DNA from: Methanolobus sp. ZRKC5
GTDB taxonomy: Archaea > Halobacteriota > Methanosarcinia > Methanosarcinales > Methanosarcinaceae
Direction: 5' to 3'
Length of the DNA stretch: 64,000 bases
NCBI RefSeq assembly: GCF_038446525.1
Contig: NZ_CP151792.1
Span: 2,294,001-2,358,000 of the forward strand
In this document: one piece after another, positions 1,685 to 30,801 of the stretch
How positions within the stretch are numbered: position 1 is the stretch's first letter
Layout of the letters: each line of letters opens with the position of its first letter
The notes under the pieces: generated by a model
The model's input: the letters and a program-made list of their open reading frames with translations, nothing else
Told to the model about the DNA's origin: nothing
Databases searched by the model: none
Position numbers and translations under genes: made by a program

Positions 1685-2206
1685 ATGGCAACAGGACCCA
1701 GATATAAAGTCGCATTCAGACGACGAAGAGAAGGGCGTACTGATTACCACCAGAGACTTAGGTTACTTCTTTCAAAGGAAGACCGTGTGGTAGTACGCAA
1801 GAGTTCAAGGCACATGCAGATCCAGCTTGTAGCTCCTAAACCTGAAGGGGATGTTACCCTTTCATCTGCAATTTCAACAGAACTTAAAAAGTATGGATAC
1901 GAGGCATCTACTGGAAACACAACAGCTGCGTACCTTACCGGTCTGTTATTCGGTTATAGGGCACAGAGCAAGGGATATGATTACGGCGTTCTTGACATAG
2001 GACTCCAGGCATCATCTTCCGGATCACGTGTATATGCAACCTTGAAAGGCATCGTAGATGCAGGATTCGAAATTCCTCACGATTCATCTGTTCTTCCTTC
2101 AGATGAGAGAGTAAGAGGAGAACACGTAGCAGAGTACATTGAAGGCTCAAATCTGCCTGAACTGTTCGATACAGTTAAGGAAAAGATCTCTGCTGAGTTC
2201 AACTAG
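1685..2206 (+). CDS. rpl18: 50S ribosomal protein L18 (uL18)
   Basis: 173-residue L18, the 5S-rRNA-binding protein of the central protuberance. It shows the basic N-terminus [25 protein letters not shown] and the conserved core [24 protein letters not shown]. The length fits archaeal L18, which is longer than the bacterial form. It starts two bases after the L19e stop and ends nine bases before S5, inside the same polycistron. Confidence 0.96.
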
Positions 2207-2214
2207 GTGATTAC

Positions 2215-2850
2215 ATGGCATATCAATATGAAGAAGCATGGGTTCCACAGACAAGGCTTGGGAAACTCGTTCAAGAAGGGCAGATTACTTCCATGGACGA
2301 GGCGATCGAGTCAGGTCTTCCTGTAAGGGAATCTAATATAATCGATATTCTGTTACCTGATCTTGAGGATGAGGTTCTTGATATCAACATGGTCCAGAGG
2401 ATGACTGACTCTGGACGTCGTGTAAAGTTCAGAGCAACTGTTATTGTTGGTAATGGAAACGGTTTTGTCGGTCTTGGACAGGCAAAGGACGTCCAGGTAG
2501 GACCTGCAATCAGAAAAGCAATCAGCAACGCTAAGATCAATATAATTAAGGTAAAGCGTGGATGCGGTTCATGGGAATGCGGATGCGGACTTGAGCACAC
2601 TGTGCCTTCAGAGGTACGTGGCAAGGTCGGCAGTGTTGTTGTAGTACTAAAACCAGCTCCTAGAGGACTTGGTCTTGCTGCAGGAGACACTGCAAGGAAA
2701 GTGCTTGAGAAGGCAGGTATTAAGGACGTCTGGACAAGGACCGAAGGTACTACAAGGACAACCCTTAACTTCGCAAAGGCAACATTCACAGCATTGCAGA
2801 ATGCAGGTACTGTAAGAGTTTCTGCAAATGTGGAGAATAAGGAGGCTTAA
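2215..2850 (+). CDS. rps5: 30S ribosomal protein S5 (uS5)
   Basis: 211-residue archaeal S5. The double-stranded-RNA-binding-like S5 domain begins near [19 protein letters not shown] (about residues 62-80) and the C-terminal domain contains [21 protein letters not shown]5 lines the mRNA entry tunnel and contributes to decoding fidelity. The start follows GGTGATTAC, an extended Shine-Dalgarno. It carries an unusual C-rich stretch, [11 protein letters not shown], that is common in archaeal S5. Confidence 0.96.
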
Positions 2851-2851
2851 A

Positions 2852-3313
2852 ATGTACGCTTTGGTTAGAGTACGTGGAGACGTGAATGTAAGGGGTACAA
2901 TAAAAGATACTCTCAAGATGCTTCGTCTTCATAGGGTGAACCACTGTGTCCTTCTTAATGACAATCCTCACAATGCAGGAATGATTCAGAAGGTAAAGGA
3001 CTATGTGGCATATGGTGTTATTGATGCTGCTACTCTTGAAGAGATGCTCACAAACCGTGGCAGACTTGAAGGTGATTTAAAACTTACCGAAGAGTATGTA
3101 GCTGAGAATACAGACTATGATTCCATCAAGGCATTGGCACAGGCTATCCATGACGGCGATGTCACAGTGAAAGATGTTCCTAAGCTTAAGCCGGTATTCA
3201 GGCTCCATCCACCAAGGAAGGGCCATGCTGGTATGAAGAGGACTGTTCAGCAGGGTGGCGTTCTTGGTAATCATGGTGGGGACATTAATAAACTACTGAA
3301 GAAAATGAGGTAA
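2852..3313 (+). CDS. rpl30: 50S ribosomal protein L30 (uL30)
   Basis: 153-residue archaeal L30, longer than the bacterial 60-residue form. The chosen start gives [15 protein letters not shown], the family N-terminus, with a near-perfect AAGGAGG Shine-Dalgarno just upstream, inside the end of S5. An ATG at 2828 in the same frame overlaps S5 and includes that Shine-Dalgarno, so it is rejected. The C-terminus carries the archaeal extension [17 protein letters not shown]. Confidence 0.96.
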
Positions 3314-3317
3314 TGCC

Positions 3318-3758
3318 ATGTCTAAAAAGACCAACACAAAAAAATTCAGAGGATCACGCACCTGTGGTGGCGGAACCACCAAGAACAGACGTGGTGCCGG
3401 TAACCGTGGTGGCAGAGGTAAATGTGGTGAAAACAAGCACCATGTTACTCGTGCACTTCAGCTCGGATATCAACGTGGGCATCAGAGAGGATTTACACGT
3501 CCATTGAAGATGCTGAACGATGCTTCTATCGTGAATGTAGGAGAACTTGATGAACTTGCAGATCAGCTTGTTGAAGATGGTTTTGCCGAAGTTCAGGATG
3601 GCGCATATGTCATTGACCTTGCTGTTCTTGATATAGACAAGGTACTTGGTACCGGTAAGGTGTCAAAGAAGTTTTCCATCACTGCGGCTGAATTCTCTGC
3701 AAGTGCAAAGGAAAAGATCGAAAGTGCAGGTGGATCTTGCACTGAAATAGCTGAGTAA
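3318..3758 (+). CDS. rpl15: 50S ribosomal protein L15 (uL15)
   Basis: 146-residue L15, a late-assembly protein of the large subunit. The N-terminal half is glycine/arginine-rich ([20 protein letters not shown]), as in all L15 proteins; the C-terminal half is the globular domain around [16 protein letters not shown]. It overlaps nothing and ends in a stop codon that forms part of a terminator-like hairpin, which suggests the ribosomal part of the transcript can end here before secY. Confidence 0.96.
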
Positions 3759-3798
3759 TGCCATTTGGCATTACCTATTTATTTTATTTTATATTTTG
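3756..3798 (+). terminator. Hairpin plus T-rich tract after rpl15
   Basis: The sequence TAATGCCA, a two-T loop and TGGCATTA form a perfect eight-base-pair stem (3756-3773) that includes the rpl15 stop codon. It is followed by a T-rich tract through about 3798. This fits archaeal termination at T-rich sites, possibly with read-through or a new promoter for secY. Function is inferred from structure only. Confidence 0.6.
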
Positions 3799-3897
3799 TG
3801 CAATTAAAGGGTGCATATTTATTAATGTTAAAATCTATTAAGGTGTACTTTATAACCTAATAATTGCATGGATTTTTCCATTCAAAGGGTGGAATTA

Positions 3898-5376
3898 ATG
3901 AGTCTTAAGGATAATTTGGAACCAATTTTTAATAAATTGCCTGCGGTTGCAAGTCCGGAGGGGCATGTTCATTTCAAGAACAAACTTATGTGGACTCTTG
4001 GAATTCTTGTTCTCTATTTTGCGCTTGCCAACGTACCGCTATTTGGATTGTCAGCGGATTCGATAGATCTTTTCGAATCCTATAGAGCATTTTTTGCCGG
4101 AGCTTCGGGTTCTCTGATGCTGCTGGGTATCGGTCCTATCGTCACCGCATCCATTGTCCTTCAGCTATTGGTTGGTGCTGATGTCATAAAGCTCGACATG
4201 TCCGATCCGTCAGACCAGGCGTTCTTCCAGGGCGCACAGAAGTTCATGGTCTTTGTAATGATAGTACTTGAGGCTTTGCCACAGATCGTTGGTGGCTACA
4301 TTCAGCCGGATGCAGCACTTGCAGCGACTTTAGGGGTAGGTACAGGAGTAATTACATTTATCATCTTTATACAGATATGCATAGGCGGTACACTGGTACT
4401 CTTCATGGACGAGGTCGTTTCCAAATGGGGTATTGGCTCAGGTGTCGGTCTTTTCATTGTGGCGGGAGTTTCCCAGCAGATTGTGACCGGATTGTTTAAC
4501 TGGACATCTGATTCAAGCGGTTTACCTACCGGATTCTTCTTTAAGTGGATATACATCGTGCAGAATGTGGAAGCAGATTTCTTATTCTCAGGCGATGGTA
4601 TAATGTTCATGCTGGTAAGTGGTGGTATACTTGCATTGCTAAGTACTATAGCTATCTTCATGCTTGTCGTCTATGTAGAAAGTACACGTATTGAGATACC
4701 TCTGGCACACAGTGCTGTGAGGGGTGCAAGGGGCAAGTTCCCTGTTAAACTCATATATGCTTCAGTTCTGCCAATGATTCTTGTAAGGGCATTGCAGGCT
4801 AATATTCAGATGATTGGTCTTCTGTTGAGTGGAAGGGGAATAACCCTCCTTGGAGAATACAGTGGTTCAACACCTATCAATGGTATTATGTATTATCTGG
4901 CTCCGATCAACAGTCCGTATGACTGGATACCTTCCCTTGTCAGGGAATCATTCACAAGCTATGGTGCTCCAGTGCCTGCCATTTGGCAGATTGGATTGCA
5001 TGTGTTTGTTGATGCTTTCTTCCTGATCGTAGGTGGTATCATCTTTGCTTTGTTCTGGATAGAGACTACAGGTATGGGTGCAAAACCTACAGCGAAAAAG
5101 ATCTTTAATTCAGGTATGCAGATCCCAGGTTTCAGAAGGAATGTTGGAAGTATCGAAAAAGTAATGCTAAGATACATCCCGAAAGTAACTATTATTGGCG
5201 GTGCTTTCATAGGTGCTCTTACGCTTGTTGCAAGTCTGCTTGGTACTCTTGGAGGTGCAGGTGGTACTGGTCTTCTGCTTACGGTAAGTATTGTATACCG
5301 TCTGTATGAGGATATAGCATCAGAGCAGATGATGGAGATGCATCCAATGGTAAGGTCCTTCTTTGGACAGGAATGA
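3898..5376 (+). CDS. secY: Preprotein translocase subunit SecY
   Basis: 492-residue SecY, the pore subunit of the Sec translocon in the cytoplasmic membrane, which exports or inserts most membrane and secreted proteins with SecE and Sec-beta. About ten hydrophobic segments are visible; the plug region is near SADSIDLFESYRAFFAGASGSLMLLGIGPIVTASI and the family motif GIGSGVGLFI is present. The start at 3898 is chosen because AAAGGGTGG precedes it; the in-frame ATG at 3868 has no Shine-Dalgarno. TATA-like sequences lie in the 139-base gap upstream, so secY may also have its own promoter. SecY closing the spc operon is the normal archaeal arrangement. Confidence 0.96.
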   Translation: MSLKDNLEPIFNKLPAVASPEGHVHFKNKLMWTLGILVLYFALANVPLFGLSADSIDLFESYRAFFAGASGSLMLLGIGPIVTASIVLQLLVGADVIKLDMSDPSDQAFFQGAQKFMVFVMIVLEALPQIVGGYIQPDAALAATLGVGTGVITFIIFIQICIGGTLVLFMDEVVSKWGIGSGVGLFIVAGVSQQIVTGLFNWTSDSSGLPTGFFFKWIYIVQNVEADFLFSGDGIMFMLVSGGILALLSTIAIFMLVVYVESTRIEIPLAHSAVRGARGKFPVKLIYASVLPMILVRALQANIQMIGLLLSGRGITLLGEYSGSTPINGIMYYLAPINSPYDWIPSLVRESFTSYGAPVPAIWQIGLHVFVDAFFLIVGGIIFALFWIETTGMGAKPTAKKIFNSGMQIPGFRRNVGSIEKVMLRYIPKVTIIGGAFIGALTLVASLLGTLGGAGGTGLLLTVSIVYRLYEDIASEQMMEMHPMVRSFFGQE

Positions 5377-27832: not shown

Positions 27833-28162
27833 ATGAAACCAATAACACTAGAGGAAATGCTTGCACTGCCATTGAACAAATTTGTCGATAGGTGCGTGGA
27901 CTGGTGTGAAGAGTTCAATGATGAACAAACCATGAAAACAGATAAAGAAACACCCTGCTCAGTTCTATTTTGGGTAGTGAATAATCAAAAGAAGTGTTCA
28001 AAGGGAAACGTGGCAAATATTGAGCATTGTCCTGTGTGCGATCAACCGGTATGTCCAAATTGTATGAATCATAACGTGCATCAGCTGTTAAGGGTTACTG
28101 GCTATCTTTCCACTGTGGCTGGTTGGCTGGAACGCGTCAAAAAAGCAGGGATTGAAGGGTAG
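27833..28162 (+). CDS. Small NrdD-tail-like zinc protein, probably frameshifted at its 3' end
   Basis: 109 residues. The second half reads EHCPVCDQPVCPNCMNHNVH then RVTGYLSTVAGW: a four-cysteine zinc site followed by RVTGYL, like the glycyl-radical region at the end of class III anaerobic ribonucleotide reductase (NrdD). No catalytic barrel is present. After GW the frame gives LERVKKAGIEG, but a 4-base repeat (CTGG) at about 28118-28128 has shifted it; another frame reads NASKKQGLKGRNKN, close to the NAGKKQE tail of NrdD. It lies 240 bases before class II reductase nrdJ. Confidence 0.65.
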   Translation: MKPITLEEMLALPLNKFVDRCVDWCEEFNDEQTMKTDKETPCSVLFWVVNNQKKCSKGNVANIEHCPVCDQPVCPNCMNHNVHQLLRVTGYLSTVAGWLERVKKAGIEG

Positions 28163-28401
28163 AAATAAGAATTTGAGTTCTGCCACTATTTGAATGGTGA
28201 CTTATATTTGATGCTATGTGGAATACTTATTCAAACAAGTACCAATCAGGCTGAAACTGGTAACTCTGTTCAACATATGGTATTTTTAAAATAATTGTGA
28301 GTTTCCATTAGAGTCTGAATATTAAGGATTTCTACAAAGCTGAAGATTGATTGATGGAATGCAAATGATGAAAATTTTATTTATAACTGTAAGGTGAAAA
28401 A
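28163..28401. other. Spacer with a solo IS end-like sequence
   Basis: AGGATTTCTACAAAGCT near 28325-28341 resembles the right ends of the MITE and outer IS (14 of 17 positions), without a visible partner end. AAGGTG before 28402 is the Shine-Dalgarno of nrdJ. Confidence 0.3.
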
Positions 28402-30801
28402 ATGGGAATAACAACTCAATGCAAAAAACTTAGCCCCATTGCTGAAGATATCCTCGGTAAAAGGTATTACCATAAAGGGGAGGATTGGAGCGGACTATGT
28501 GAAAGAGTCGCATTTGTAATATCAAATGGTGACAAAGAATTAGCAGATGACTTCTTTGATGTAATGTACAACCTTGATTTCTTGCCAAATTCTCCTACAT
28601 TGGCAAATGCAGGTAAAGAAGGTGACAGACAACAGCTTTCTGCATGTTTCATATTGCCTGTTGAGGATGATCTGGTTGAAATAATGGGAACAGTCAAAAA
28701 CACCGCTGTTGTTCATAAAAGCGGTGGTGGGACTGGTTTTGATTTCTCTTCAACCAGACCCAAAGGTTCCCCGGTATCATCAACAAATGGTGTTGCATCC
28801 GGTCCTCTCAGCTGGATGAAAATCATCAATGCAACTACAGAAGAGGTCAAACAGGGTGGTATGAGACGTGGTGCAAACATGGGTACTCTCCGTGTGGACC
28901 ATCCGGATATTCTTGACTTCATCCTTTGTAAGAAGAATGACAAGATGATGACAAACTTCAATTTGTCCGTTGCTGTATCTGAAGTTTTCATGGATGCTGT
29001 TGAGAAGGGCGATGATTTTGAACTGGTAGATCCTCATAATAGCGAAGTAGTCCGTATGGATGCCCGTGAGGTATTTGATATCATATGCGAGAATGCCTGG
29101 GAATCCGGTGAACCCGGAATGATATTCATTGATACGGTAAATTCCACTAATCCTGTTCCTCATCTCGGTGCGATCAAATCATCAAATCCATGTGGTGAGT
29201 TCTATTTCATTCCATTCGGTGTATGTAATCTCGGTTCAATAAACCTGGTCAATATGCTGAAACCTACAGAAGATGGACTTTATGCAATTGATTTTGACCG
29301 TCTCAAGAAGATCACTGAAATTGCAGTCACATTCCTGGATAAGGTTATTGATGTGAATCATTTCCCATTACCTGAGATCCATGATATGGCACACAAGACC
29401 AGACCTATTGGATTAGGTGTCATGGGACTTGCAGACATGTTGTTGTACATGAAATTACCCTATGACAGTGATGCGGGTCGTGAAATGGTTGGGAAGGTCA
29501 TGAAGTTCATTGATAACGCTGGATGGGCTACATCAAACATGCTTGGTCGTGAATTCGGTACATTCCCTGAGTTCCAGCAAGAAAACCTTCCATCACAGAA
29601 GACACCAAGAAATTGTCAGATCACAACAATAGCACCAACAGGTACACTTGCAACATTCGCTGGTGTATCATTTGGAATTGAGCCTAACTTCAATTTCGTG
29701 TATAAGAGGAAGATTATTGATAGCGAATTCATTCAAGTCCATCCACTCTTTGAGAAGGTGGCGAAGGAAGAAGGTTTCTATTCTGAAGGACTGATGGAAA
29801 TACTCAGGACAACTCCATCTCTGCAGATGAGAGATCTGACTGAAGTTCCGGACCATGTGAAGGAATACTTCATCACAGCTTTCGATGTTTCACCTGAAGA
29901 CCATGTGAAGATGCAAGCTACGGTCCAGAAGTATGTTGACAACGCCGTCTCAAAGACTATAAATCTCCAGTATGACGCTACATCTAAGCAAATTGGAGAA
30001 TTGTATATGATGGCCTGGAAACTCGGATGTAAGGGTCTTACAGTCTATCGTGATGGCTCCAGGGACGACCAGGTGATCGTTGCTGCAAAAGAGTCAGATG
30101 CGGACGATATAAAGCTCCTTGAAATATGCGGAGATACAGATTTTGAAGAAGCTGATATTGAAGAAGATATCGCTCCTACTCAGATCGATATCATGAATCC
30201 TGATACACTCGCTTTTGCAATGGAAGGTTTATCTCCTGAAGAGAAGTCTGAGCTTCTTCAGAGAGTAAATCTCTTCAGATTGGATTACAATACAGAAATC
30301 GACTTGCATCCAAAGGAAACTGTAAACGGTAGAAGGATAAAGTTCACAACCGGATGTGGTGAATTATATTGCAAATCGTTCGAGAATCCAATAGGGGATG
30401 GTAATGATGCAATTCCTTGGGAGCTGTTCATGACCACTGTTGGTGGTGGATGTAAAGCTCATTCTGCTGCACTTGCGATCACTGTGTCACTTGCATTGCA
30501 GGGAAGAGCAAATATCAAAAGCCTTACGCATCATTGGAGTAAGATCCAGTGTGATGCATGTAAAGGCCGTGATACTGATGGTAAGTCATGTCCTTCGATC
30601 GTGGCCAATTACATCAGATCATTGACCAAAGAGTCGGTTACCGGTACAACAGAAAAGACGATCAACAAACCAAGGATTGCTCAAGAAGTCACTAAAGTAC
30701 AGACATCATTGAAGGGTGTTTGTCCGGAATGTGGTGAAGAGATAAGGCGCATTGATGGATGTAGAAGTTGTTCAGCATGTGGCTGGACAAGGTGTGATTA
30801 A
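28402..30801 (+). CDS. nrdJ: Adenosylcobalamin-dependent (class II) ribonucleotide reductase NrdJ
   Basis: 799-residue class II reductase making deoxyribonucleotides with coenzyme B12 in place of oxygen-dependent radicals. Visible motifs: NSPTLANAG near the start, QQLSACFILPVEDDL (first redox cysteine), HKSGGGTGFDFSSTRP, SNPCGEFYF with the catalytic cysteine region, and RNCQITTIAPTGTLA. Residues about 625-740 form the TSCPD domain (KFTTGCGELYC ... KSCPSIVANYI), followed by a zinc ribbon CPECGEEI ... CRSCSACGW. Complete and intact. AAGGTG precedes the ATG. Confidence 0.96.
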   Translation: MGITTQCKKLSPIAEDILGKRYYHKGEDWSGLCERVAFVISNGDKELADDFFDVMYNLDFLPNSPTLANAGKEGDRQQLSACFILPVEDDLVEIMGTVKNTAVVHKSGGGTGFDFSSTRPKGSPVSSTNGVASGPLSWMKIINATTEEVKQGGMRRGANMGTLRVDHPDILDFILCKKNDKMMTNFNLSVAVSEVFMDAVEKGDDFELVDPHNSEVVRMDAREVFDIICENAWESGEPGMIFIDTVNSTNPVPHLGAIKSSNPCGEFYFIPFGVCNLGSINLVNMLKPTEDGLYAIDFDRLKKITEIAVTFLDKVIDVNHFPLPEIHDMAHKTRPIGLGVMGLADMLLYMKLPYDSDAGREMVGKVMKFIDNAGWATSNMLGREFGTFPEFQQENLPSQKTPRNCQITTIAPTGTLATFAGVSFGIEPNFNFVYKRKIIDSEFIQVHPLFEKVAKEEGFYSEGLMEILRTTPSLQMRDLTEVPDHVKEYFITAFDVSPEDHVKMQATVQKYVDNAVSKTINLQYDATSKQIGELYMMAWKLGCKGLTVYRDGSRDDQVIVAAKESDADDIKLLEICGDTDFEEADIEEDIAPTQIDIMNPDTLAFAMEGLSPEEKSELLQRVNLFRLDYNTEIDLHPKETVNGRRIKFTTGCGELYCKSFENPIGDGNDAIPWELFMTTVGGGCKAHSAALAITVSLALQGRANIKSLTHHWSKIQCDACKGRDTDGKSCPSIVANYIRSLTKESVTGTTEKTINKPRIAQEVTKVQTSLKGVCPECGEEIRRIDGCRSCSACGWTRCD

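Follow-up and report, generated by a model that had tools for sequence, protein, structure and literature searches.

A frame-shifted stand-alone homologue of the NrdD glycyl-radical domain in a Methanolobus genome, and a probable split class III ribonucleotide reductase in another order of methanogens

What is the tail of a class III ribonucleotide reductase doing on a small protein of its own, next to the gene for a reductase of a different class? The question is raised by a 64,000-nucleotide stretch of DNA (positions 2,294,001 to 2,358,000 of contig NZ_CP151792.1 from Methanolobus sp. ZRKC5), which we refer to as the window. It is located in a one-contig genome of 3.05 Mb, here called G000. 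Our best explanation, to which we assign a probability of about 0.8, is that the gene is a damaged copy of a family of glycyl-radical-domain proteins that would act as the radical subunit of a split NrdD in one order of methanogens (that of genome G271) and as an optional spare part in the order to which the window belongs. The features on which the argument turns, all on the + strand, are as follows.

27833 to 28162, + strand: stand-alone NrdD glycyl-radical-domain protein, 109 amino acids plus stop, with a frame-shifted C-terminus; homologues are 57–65% identical, and the protein forms a clade with genera g5 and g3.
28028 to 28063, + strand: Cys4 motif CPVCDQPVCPNC (CPVC-DQPV-CPNC, residues 66–77), a probable Zn ribbon; its four cysteines show no variation across the 37 rows of alignment A4.
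28091 to 28105, + strand: RVTGY motif (RVTGYL) with the predicted radical glycine, Gly90 (codon 28100–28102), which falls on Gly621 of Thermotoga maritima NrdD.
28117 to 28130, + strand: GGCTGG-TT-GGCTGG repeat, four bases longer than in the syntenic relic of genome G086; the frame shift follows Trp98 (codon 28124–28126).
28131 to 28193, + strand: remains of the ancestral tail, one base on in frame, reading NASKKQGLKGRNKNLSSATI and ending in the stop codon TGA; in the G086 relic a single frame gives GGWNSAWRQEVKARNKNYSSATL.
28402 to 30801, + strand: nrdJ, for an adenosylcobalamin-dependent class II ribonucleotide reductase, the next listed same-strand open reading frame downstream and 90% identical in G086; a neighbor only.

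Sequence comparison confirmed that the product of the small open reading frame stands alone and is homologous to the Zn/glycyl-radical domain at the C-terminus of class III ribonucleotide reductase (NrdD; PF13597/TIGR02487), as a first-pass annotation had proposed from the motifs CPVC...CPNC and RVTGYL. Residues 62–99 of the product align with positions 507–549 of the 562 in the Pfam model PF13597 (NRDD; E = 6.4e-5), and with 109 amino acids and only this part of the model covered, the protein lacks the 10-stranded barrel of NrdD with its finger-loop cysteine. Its score of 22.2 bits lies below the Pfam cut-off of 26.2 bits; for two intact relatives the same model gives 45.6 and 55.4 bits. The only other Pfam match at E values up to 1 was a weak one to the B-box, and NCBIfam returned NrdD models only, all far under their whole-protein cut-offs. 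Eight homologues align with residues 3–101 of the window protein at 57–65% identity and E values of 1e-43 to 8e-40, so the resemblance to the NrdD tail is not a matter of chance. In a profile alignment in which Prevotella copri NrdD is matched at E = 2.4e-9, the conserved glycine of the family coincides with Gly621 of T. maritima NrdD (4coi_A; chain E value 0.02, position counted from the alignment), the radical site of that enzyme according to the excerpted text of PMC4493059. Judged by sequence, both the Zn ribbon and the glycyl-radical motif of the NrdD C-terminus are thus present in the window protein.

The protein follows its relatives as far as Trp98 and then continues as LERVKKAGIEG, these last 11 residues being out of frame. 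Read one base on, the DNA after Trp98 encodes NASKKQGLKGRNKNLSSATI followed by a stop, which resembles NAAKKQELKDRVRSD in the relatives. The C-terminus of the g5 relatives is RVTGYISNVSGWNAxKxQELKDRVRSD, and the remaining relatives retain GWNxxKxQE. The intact homologues terminate in GWNxxKxQExxxR, and none of the 37 rows of A4 departs from the G, W, N, K, Q, E, and R of this motif. The first-pass annotation had attributed the altered ending to a 4-base repeat, and comparison with G086, a congener, agrees with this: in an alignment of the DNA the window has four bases more than the G086 relic at the GGCTGG repeat. The relic lies upstream of the 90%-identical nrdJ, and its similarity to the window at the DNA level begins only in mid-gene (window position 28040); RVTGY is gone, yet the tail can be read in one frame as GGWNSAWRQEVKARNKNYSSATL. 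The G086 orthologue is plainly a pseudogene. As for the four extra bases in the window, they could be an assembly error.

Methyl-coenzyme M reductase alpha was found in all of the 15 genomes checked (G000 and 14 others), which marks these organisms as methanogens or relatives of methanogens. (In G000, two partial C-terminal mcrA fragments at C1:2695704–2696194, about 1.6 kb downstream of the intact mcrA, look like a decayed duplicate.) G000 contains a single NrdD, which is full length (model positions 1–562, E = 1.3e-158), and the radical-SAM gene adjoining it is NrdG2 as judged by TIGR02495 (185.9 bits; cut-off 131.15). Hence, the window's genome presents a GrcA-like setting, with a small free-standing glycyl-radical domain alongside a complete NrdD and its activase, and not the setting of a split reductase, in which the catalytic NrdD would lack the domain. 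A radical-domain profile matched all 24 genomes of the window's genus at E values of 1e-9 or better, and nrdJ was detected only in G000 and G086 among the ten genomes of the genus that were searched, G000 included. The suggestion that the gene had been decaying since NrdD was replaced by nrdJ therefore survives only in part: the copy does look damaged, but the presence of full-length NrdD and NrdG2 rules out the replacement.

When 149 genomes of the window's order were scanned with a profile of the family, at least 19 proved to have a stand-alone copy. The distribution is uneven, with 7 of 9 genomes in genus g5 (which we guess to be Methanococcoides-like), 1 of 7 in g3, one among the 24 of the genus to which the window belongs, and ten carriers, broken copies included, in families f3 and f5. 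Eighteen of the 19 carriers have at least one further match, which is an NrdD tail or, in some genomes, also a second stand-alone piece; the sole carrier without one (G055) is 78% complete. Besides the window copy, broken-looking copies were seen in G022 (glycine changed to cysteine, and an upstream stop), in G067, in G043, and as the second copy in G016. This pattern (patchy, usually with another NrdD tail present, and broken in several genomes) is as would be expected of a dispensable spare part, and a role like that of GrcA/YfiD, which the first-pass annotation had imagined, appears plausible for the family.

Conservation was assessed in alignments that exclude the broken copies L016, L020, and L021 (A2–A4) and, in the case of A3 and A4, the viral sequences L065–L068 and L070–L074 as well. 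The motif C-x2-C-x4-C-x2-C and the glycine are invariant in 37 of 37 rows of A4. The intact proteins L008 and L045 matched only NrdD-type families, save for one zinc-ribbon hit (double zinc ribbon, L045), and no family was listed in Pfam or NCBIfam for the N-terminal part of the small protein. None of the homologues tested falls in another family. One candidate, L033, the single match in a named genome collection, was dropped; it lies in a 718-amino-acid frame whose printed end has no NrdD tail.

A different arrangement was found elsewhere in the phylum. Among 344 genomes to which the stand-alone profile was applied, short frames were also present in families f8, f16, f19, f25, f26, and f27; these are 121–242 codons in length (mostly 121–150), with one profile match per genome. 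Of 26 genomes chosen for a search with PF13597, 17 have a catalytic NrdD that aligns with the model only as far as position 510–516 of 562, and a small open reading frame that aligns with it from about 504 to 562. Across the 120 genomes of the order that includes G271 (presumably Methanomicrobiales), no listed catalytic match extends beyond position 516 except that of a second NrdD in G229 (1–560), and the match in G470 covers 1–336 only. This second NrdD (L163, G229:C1:590266–592373) is a 569-amino-acid frame with a gene of NrdG type directly beside it, and the split NrdD is present in G229 as well.

The complete sequences of the 30 catalytic genes with the highest scores were inspected, each from a different one of the 102 genomes that possess such a gene. 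All 30 stop 25–29 residues past the cis-cysteine position that follows GYFAFTRD[LI]TV. In four full-length controls that position is invariably cysteine, which presumably starts the Zn site, whereas in 26 of the 30 it is not (Ser in 22, Ala in three, Pro in one; Cys in four). All 30 keep SCYQCCA, the presumed finger-loop motif. The QCC within it resembles double-cysteine loops described in the consulted part of PMC9669993. When four of the catalytic genes were examined, no radical domain was found in any of three frames within 60 codons past the stop. In an alignment of 27 rows, one split NrdD, L116, shares 66–71% identity with five archaeal NrdDs of full length, and the 34 best PDB matches to its predicted model (pLDDT 72) are all class III ribonucleotide reductases, with TM-scores of 0.44–0.50. 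The small protein modeled alone (pLDDT 76, falling below 50 at residues 1–3, 97–101, and 115–118) had no meaningful PDB match in a fold search. Many catalytic NrdD frames of this order are about 1060–2000 amino acids long and are interrupted near model position 53, 263, or both; the insert in L167 (G229:C1:2970000–2985000) begins CIDGSTVIPM and, from the start of its sequence, looks like an intein.

Catalytic NrdD was found in 102, the small protein in 102, and a homologue of NrdG2 in 101 of the 120 genomes, so that, by subtraction, 97 carry all three. NrdG2 was counted with the G000 NrdG2 sequence as query (one match each at E = 1e-15); this query was used in place of the NrdG model TIGR02491, which matched in 93 of the 120 genomes and exceeded its cut-off in one. 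All three genes are missing from the same 16 genomes, which all belong to genus g87 (Methanocorpusculum-like, if our guess is right). The other absences are single: of the small protein in G442 and G466, of the catalytic gene in G450 and G476 (which do have the small protein), and of NrdG2 in G452, G469, and G484, the completeness of these genomes being 56–93%. In g87 the three genes were probably lost in a single event, and small Fisher p-values for co-occurrence therefore overstate the amount of independent evidence. This shared pattern of presence and loss of the small protein, the truncated NrdD, and NrdG2 holds for the G271 order only.

The three genes are far apart in G271 (small gene at 2,360,374, catalytic nrdD at 2,009,982, and NrdG2 at 855,805). 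In 16 neighborhoods of 15 kb (15 from the order and L095 from family f28), clusters named, from Pfam on L082 alone, as cbiZ and OB-fold recur in 15, and those for deoxyhypusine synthase and orotidine-phosphate decarboxylase in 13. In L082 (7244–8481) and its equivalents in L080–L094, the small gene is part of a conserved run of genes that includes cbiZ (B12 salvage), pyrF, a deoxyhypusine synthase gene, and an OB-fold gene.

With which enzyme might the small protein work? PF01228, the PFL-type radical domain, had no match in 23 of the 24 genomes that contain the small protein or a relic of it, G000 included, and the single match is the second NrdD of G229; the window protein itself has no PF01228 match, Pfam having listed only NRDD and the B-box. 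A PFL-type partner was accordingly rejected. With the glycine falling, moreover, on the radical site of NrdD, no partner other than NrdD was detected.

Relatives of the small protein are also found in viruses. A scan of viral contigs identified 17 loci, 15 of which hold a short open reading frame with the motif, ten of 105–136 amino acids (L059–L068) and five of 54–81 amino acids (L070–L074); L069 and L075 contain none. In 14 of the 15 loci, three NrdD queries found no barrel in the 4- to 10-kb stretch searched of each contig. L065–L068 have a shorter Cys4 spacing that is not exact and stand outside A4. L070 (IMGVR_UViG_3300031111_000001, 2018–5099) brings together a catalytic NrdD (model positions 1–534), a radical-SAM gene, and a 54-amino-acid protein (534–560), and is by its predicted products a second kind of split NrdD, cut between the Zn ribbon and the radical loop. 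The archaeal virus ANMV-1 encodes a stand-alone domain of 144 amino acids that is annotated as "anaerobic ribonucleoside triphosphate reductase" (AJP62049.1; KP703175.1 25525–25959; L172 3180–3614), and an oxygen-sensitive ribonucleotide reductase is inferred in the excerpted text of the paper on that virus (PMC4372165); three NrdD queries found no barrel in its 38-kb record. The L008 protein matched 11 phage records, the five annotated ones carrying the name NrdD, and the L074 protein matched three, namely ANMV-1, an Oceanotoga phage with a complete NrdD, and one unannotated record. Comparison with PHROGs returned the NrdD large subunit and DNA primase, helicase, or polymerase families, with three of ten proteins unmatched.

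From these observations we infer the following mechanism. Intact small proteins would fold a Zn ribbon, NrdG2 of the cell would load a glycyl radical onto the glycine of RVTGY, and the RVTGY loop would then dock in trans, entering the barrel of NrdD just as the covalent loop does in the undivided enzyme. The barrel subunit of the G271 order has lost its own Zn/glycyl-radical region; the enzyme there would be split, with the small protein as its obligate radical subunit. NrdD keeps its own domain in the window's order, and the small protein would there be an optional spare part, often lost or broken, that replaces the oxygen-cleaved tail of full-length NrdD, as YfiD does for PFL.

Where does this leave the window copy? 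Its radical loop is intact, but the conserved in-frame tail that follows the loop in intact relatives is missing, and such a copy would be expected to be impaired or dead; it is probably a frame-shifted gene whose product is non-functional or impaired. That it instead still works, as a living spare part for the NrdD of G000 with its altered tail tolerated, we consider unlikely, even though its start codon, Cys4 motif, and RVTGY are all intact. The far C-terminus of T. maritima NrdD is disordered in the crystal structure from 13 residues past the radical glycine (PMC4493059, in the portion consulted), and the window tail is altered from nine residues past it, so that an altered tail might be tolerated. 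Nor is there a surplus of changes before the tail: the window copy departs at three of 24 otherwise invariant columns, and because L012, a distant but intact row, likewise deviates at three of 24, relaxed constraint in this part is unproven. What weighs against a working copy is the invariance of seven tail residues in A4, the pseudogene state of the G086 orthologue, and a long branch. The clade of the window copy with g5 and g3 has support of 98/100 (97/91 in a tree trimmed of the C-terminal tail, from which the NrdD tails were left out), and even without its tail the window copy has the longest branch in the clade (0.61, as compared with 0 to 0.28 for the others).

A more general objection is that the family might be radical-free and regulate NrdD or NrdG as a zinc-ribbon decoy, an assembly factor, or a sink. 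The small protein does have its own Zn motif and an N-terminal part belonging to no Pfam or NCBIfam family, and its gene in the G271 order lies beside cbiZ and the OB-fold gene and, in G271 itself, far from nrdD and NrdG2. We nevertheless hold a regulator to be improbable, since the glycine never varies in A4 and since the NrdD model and the family profile list no other gene with the domain in the 120 genomes of the G271 order, save the second NrdD of G229 and fragments at contig edges. Many of these genomes are drafts, and the split could in principle be an artefact of annotation or assembly; this we regard as very improbable, for all 30 catalytic genes read end at the same place, several of them in single-contig genomes, and the three-frame search past the stop found no radical domain in the four genes examined. 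Least probable of all is that the small protein is a zinc-finger protein that resembles NrdD fortuitously, as the weak B-box hit of the window protein and the double-zinc-ribbon hit of L045 might suggest: the NrdD-tail matches of intact relatives have E values of 5e-12 and 6e-15, and the catalytic and small proteins cover the NrdD model in a complementary manner.

To our knowledge, the radical glycine and the active-site cysteine of glycyl radical enzymes are located on one and the same chain, the PFL spare parts being the sole validated exception. These spare parts, GrcA/YfiD of E. coli and Y06I of phage T4, are known from a cell and a virus, as is the small NrdD-type protein, and resemble the situation in the window's order in that a small stand-alone glycyl-radical domain exists beside a full-length enzyme with a domain of its own. 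They differ in being of the PFL type, whereas the protein described here is of the NrdD type and its partner would be NrdD; moreover, in the G271 order the domain looks obligate rather than spare. Only YfiD and Y06I have been validated, and spare parts for other glycyl radical enzymes are considered possible, in the consulted text of PMC8683613. As compared with full-length NrdD (T4, T. maritima, and Prevotella copri), the small protein has the same Zn/glycyl-radical sequence and is accompanied in the genome by an NrdG2-type activase, and the split catalytic part shares its finger-loop motif with the full-length archaeal enzyme; the difference is that the glycyl-radical domain is a separate polypeptide, which includes a Cys4 motif of its own and additional N-terminal sequence. 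The class II enzyme NrdJa/NrdJb of Pseudomonas aeruginosa likewise consists of a catalytic and a small C-terminal subunit, but NrdJb functions in disulfide exchange, with catalysis and cofactor binding confined to NrdJa. Split NrdJ was, according to excerpts of a 2015 paper (PMC4520616), the only split ribonucleotide reductase found in a non-viral organism. The ANMV-1 protein AJP62049.1 is, like the small protein, a stand-alone NrdD glycyl-radical domain, but it is of the RIVGYLRP type and was published as a ribonucleotide reductase. We found no description of a split class III ribonucleotide reductase or of an NrdD spare part among the titles and opening lines of abstracts of open-licence papers, and the consulted parts of PMC9531940, PMC9669993, PMC11528403, PMC12288474, and PMC12338860 make no mention of either.

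If our interpretation is correct, nature provides in split NrdD a radical subunit that could be added, removed, labeled, or exchanged, and how NrdG loads the radical, how the loop docks, and how the enzyme is repaired after damage by oxygen would be directly testable. Formally, it would resemble class I ribonucleotide reductase, with the radical on a separate subunit. The finding would bear on the question, raised in the excerpted text of PMC8683613, of whether spare parts exist for other glycyl radical enzymes, and viral genomes that have been credited with an anaerobic ribonucleotide reductase from this domain alone, such as that of ANMV-1, are to be read differently. We think it likely, if somewhat less so than our account of the window gene, that a whole order of methanogens reduces ribonucleotides with a split class III enzyme whose radical would reside on an exchangeable subunit of about 120 amino acids, which relatives would use as a repair part for NrdD and which archaeal and bacterial viruses would use to keep the NrdD of their hosts working.
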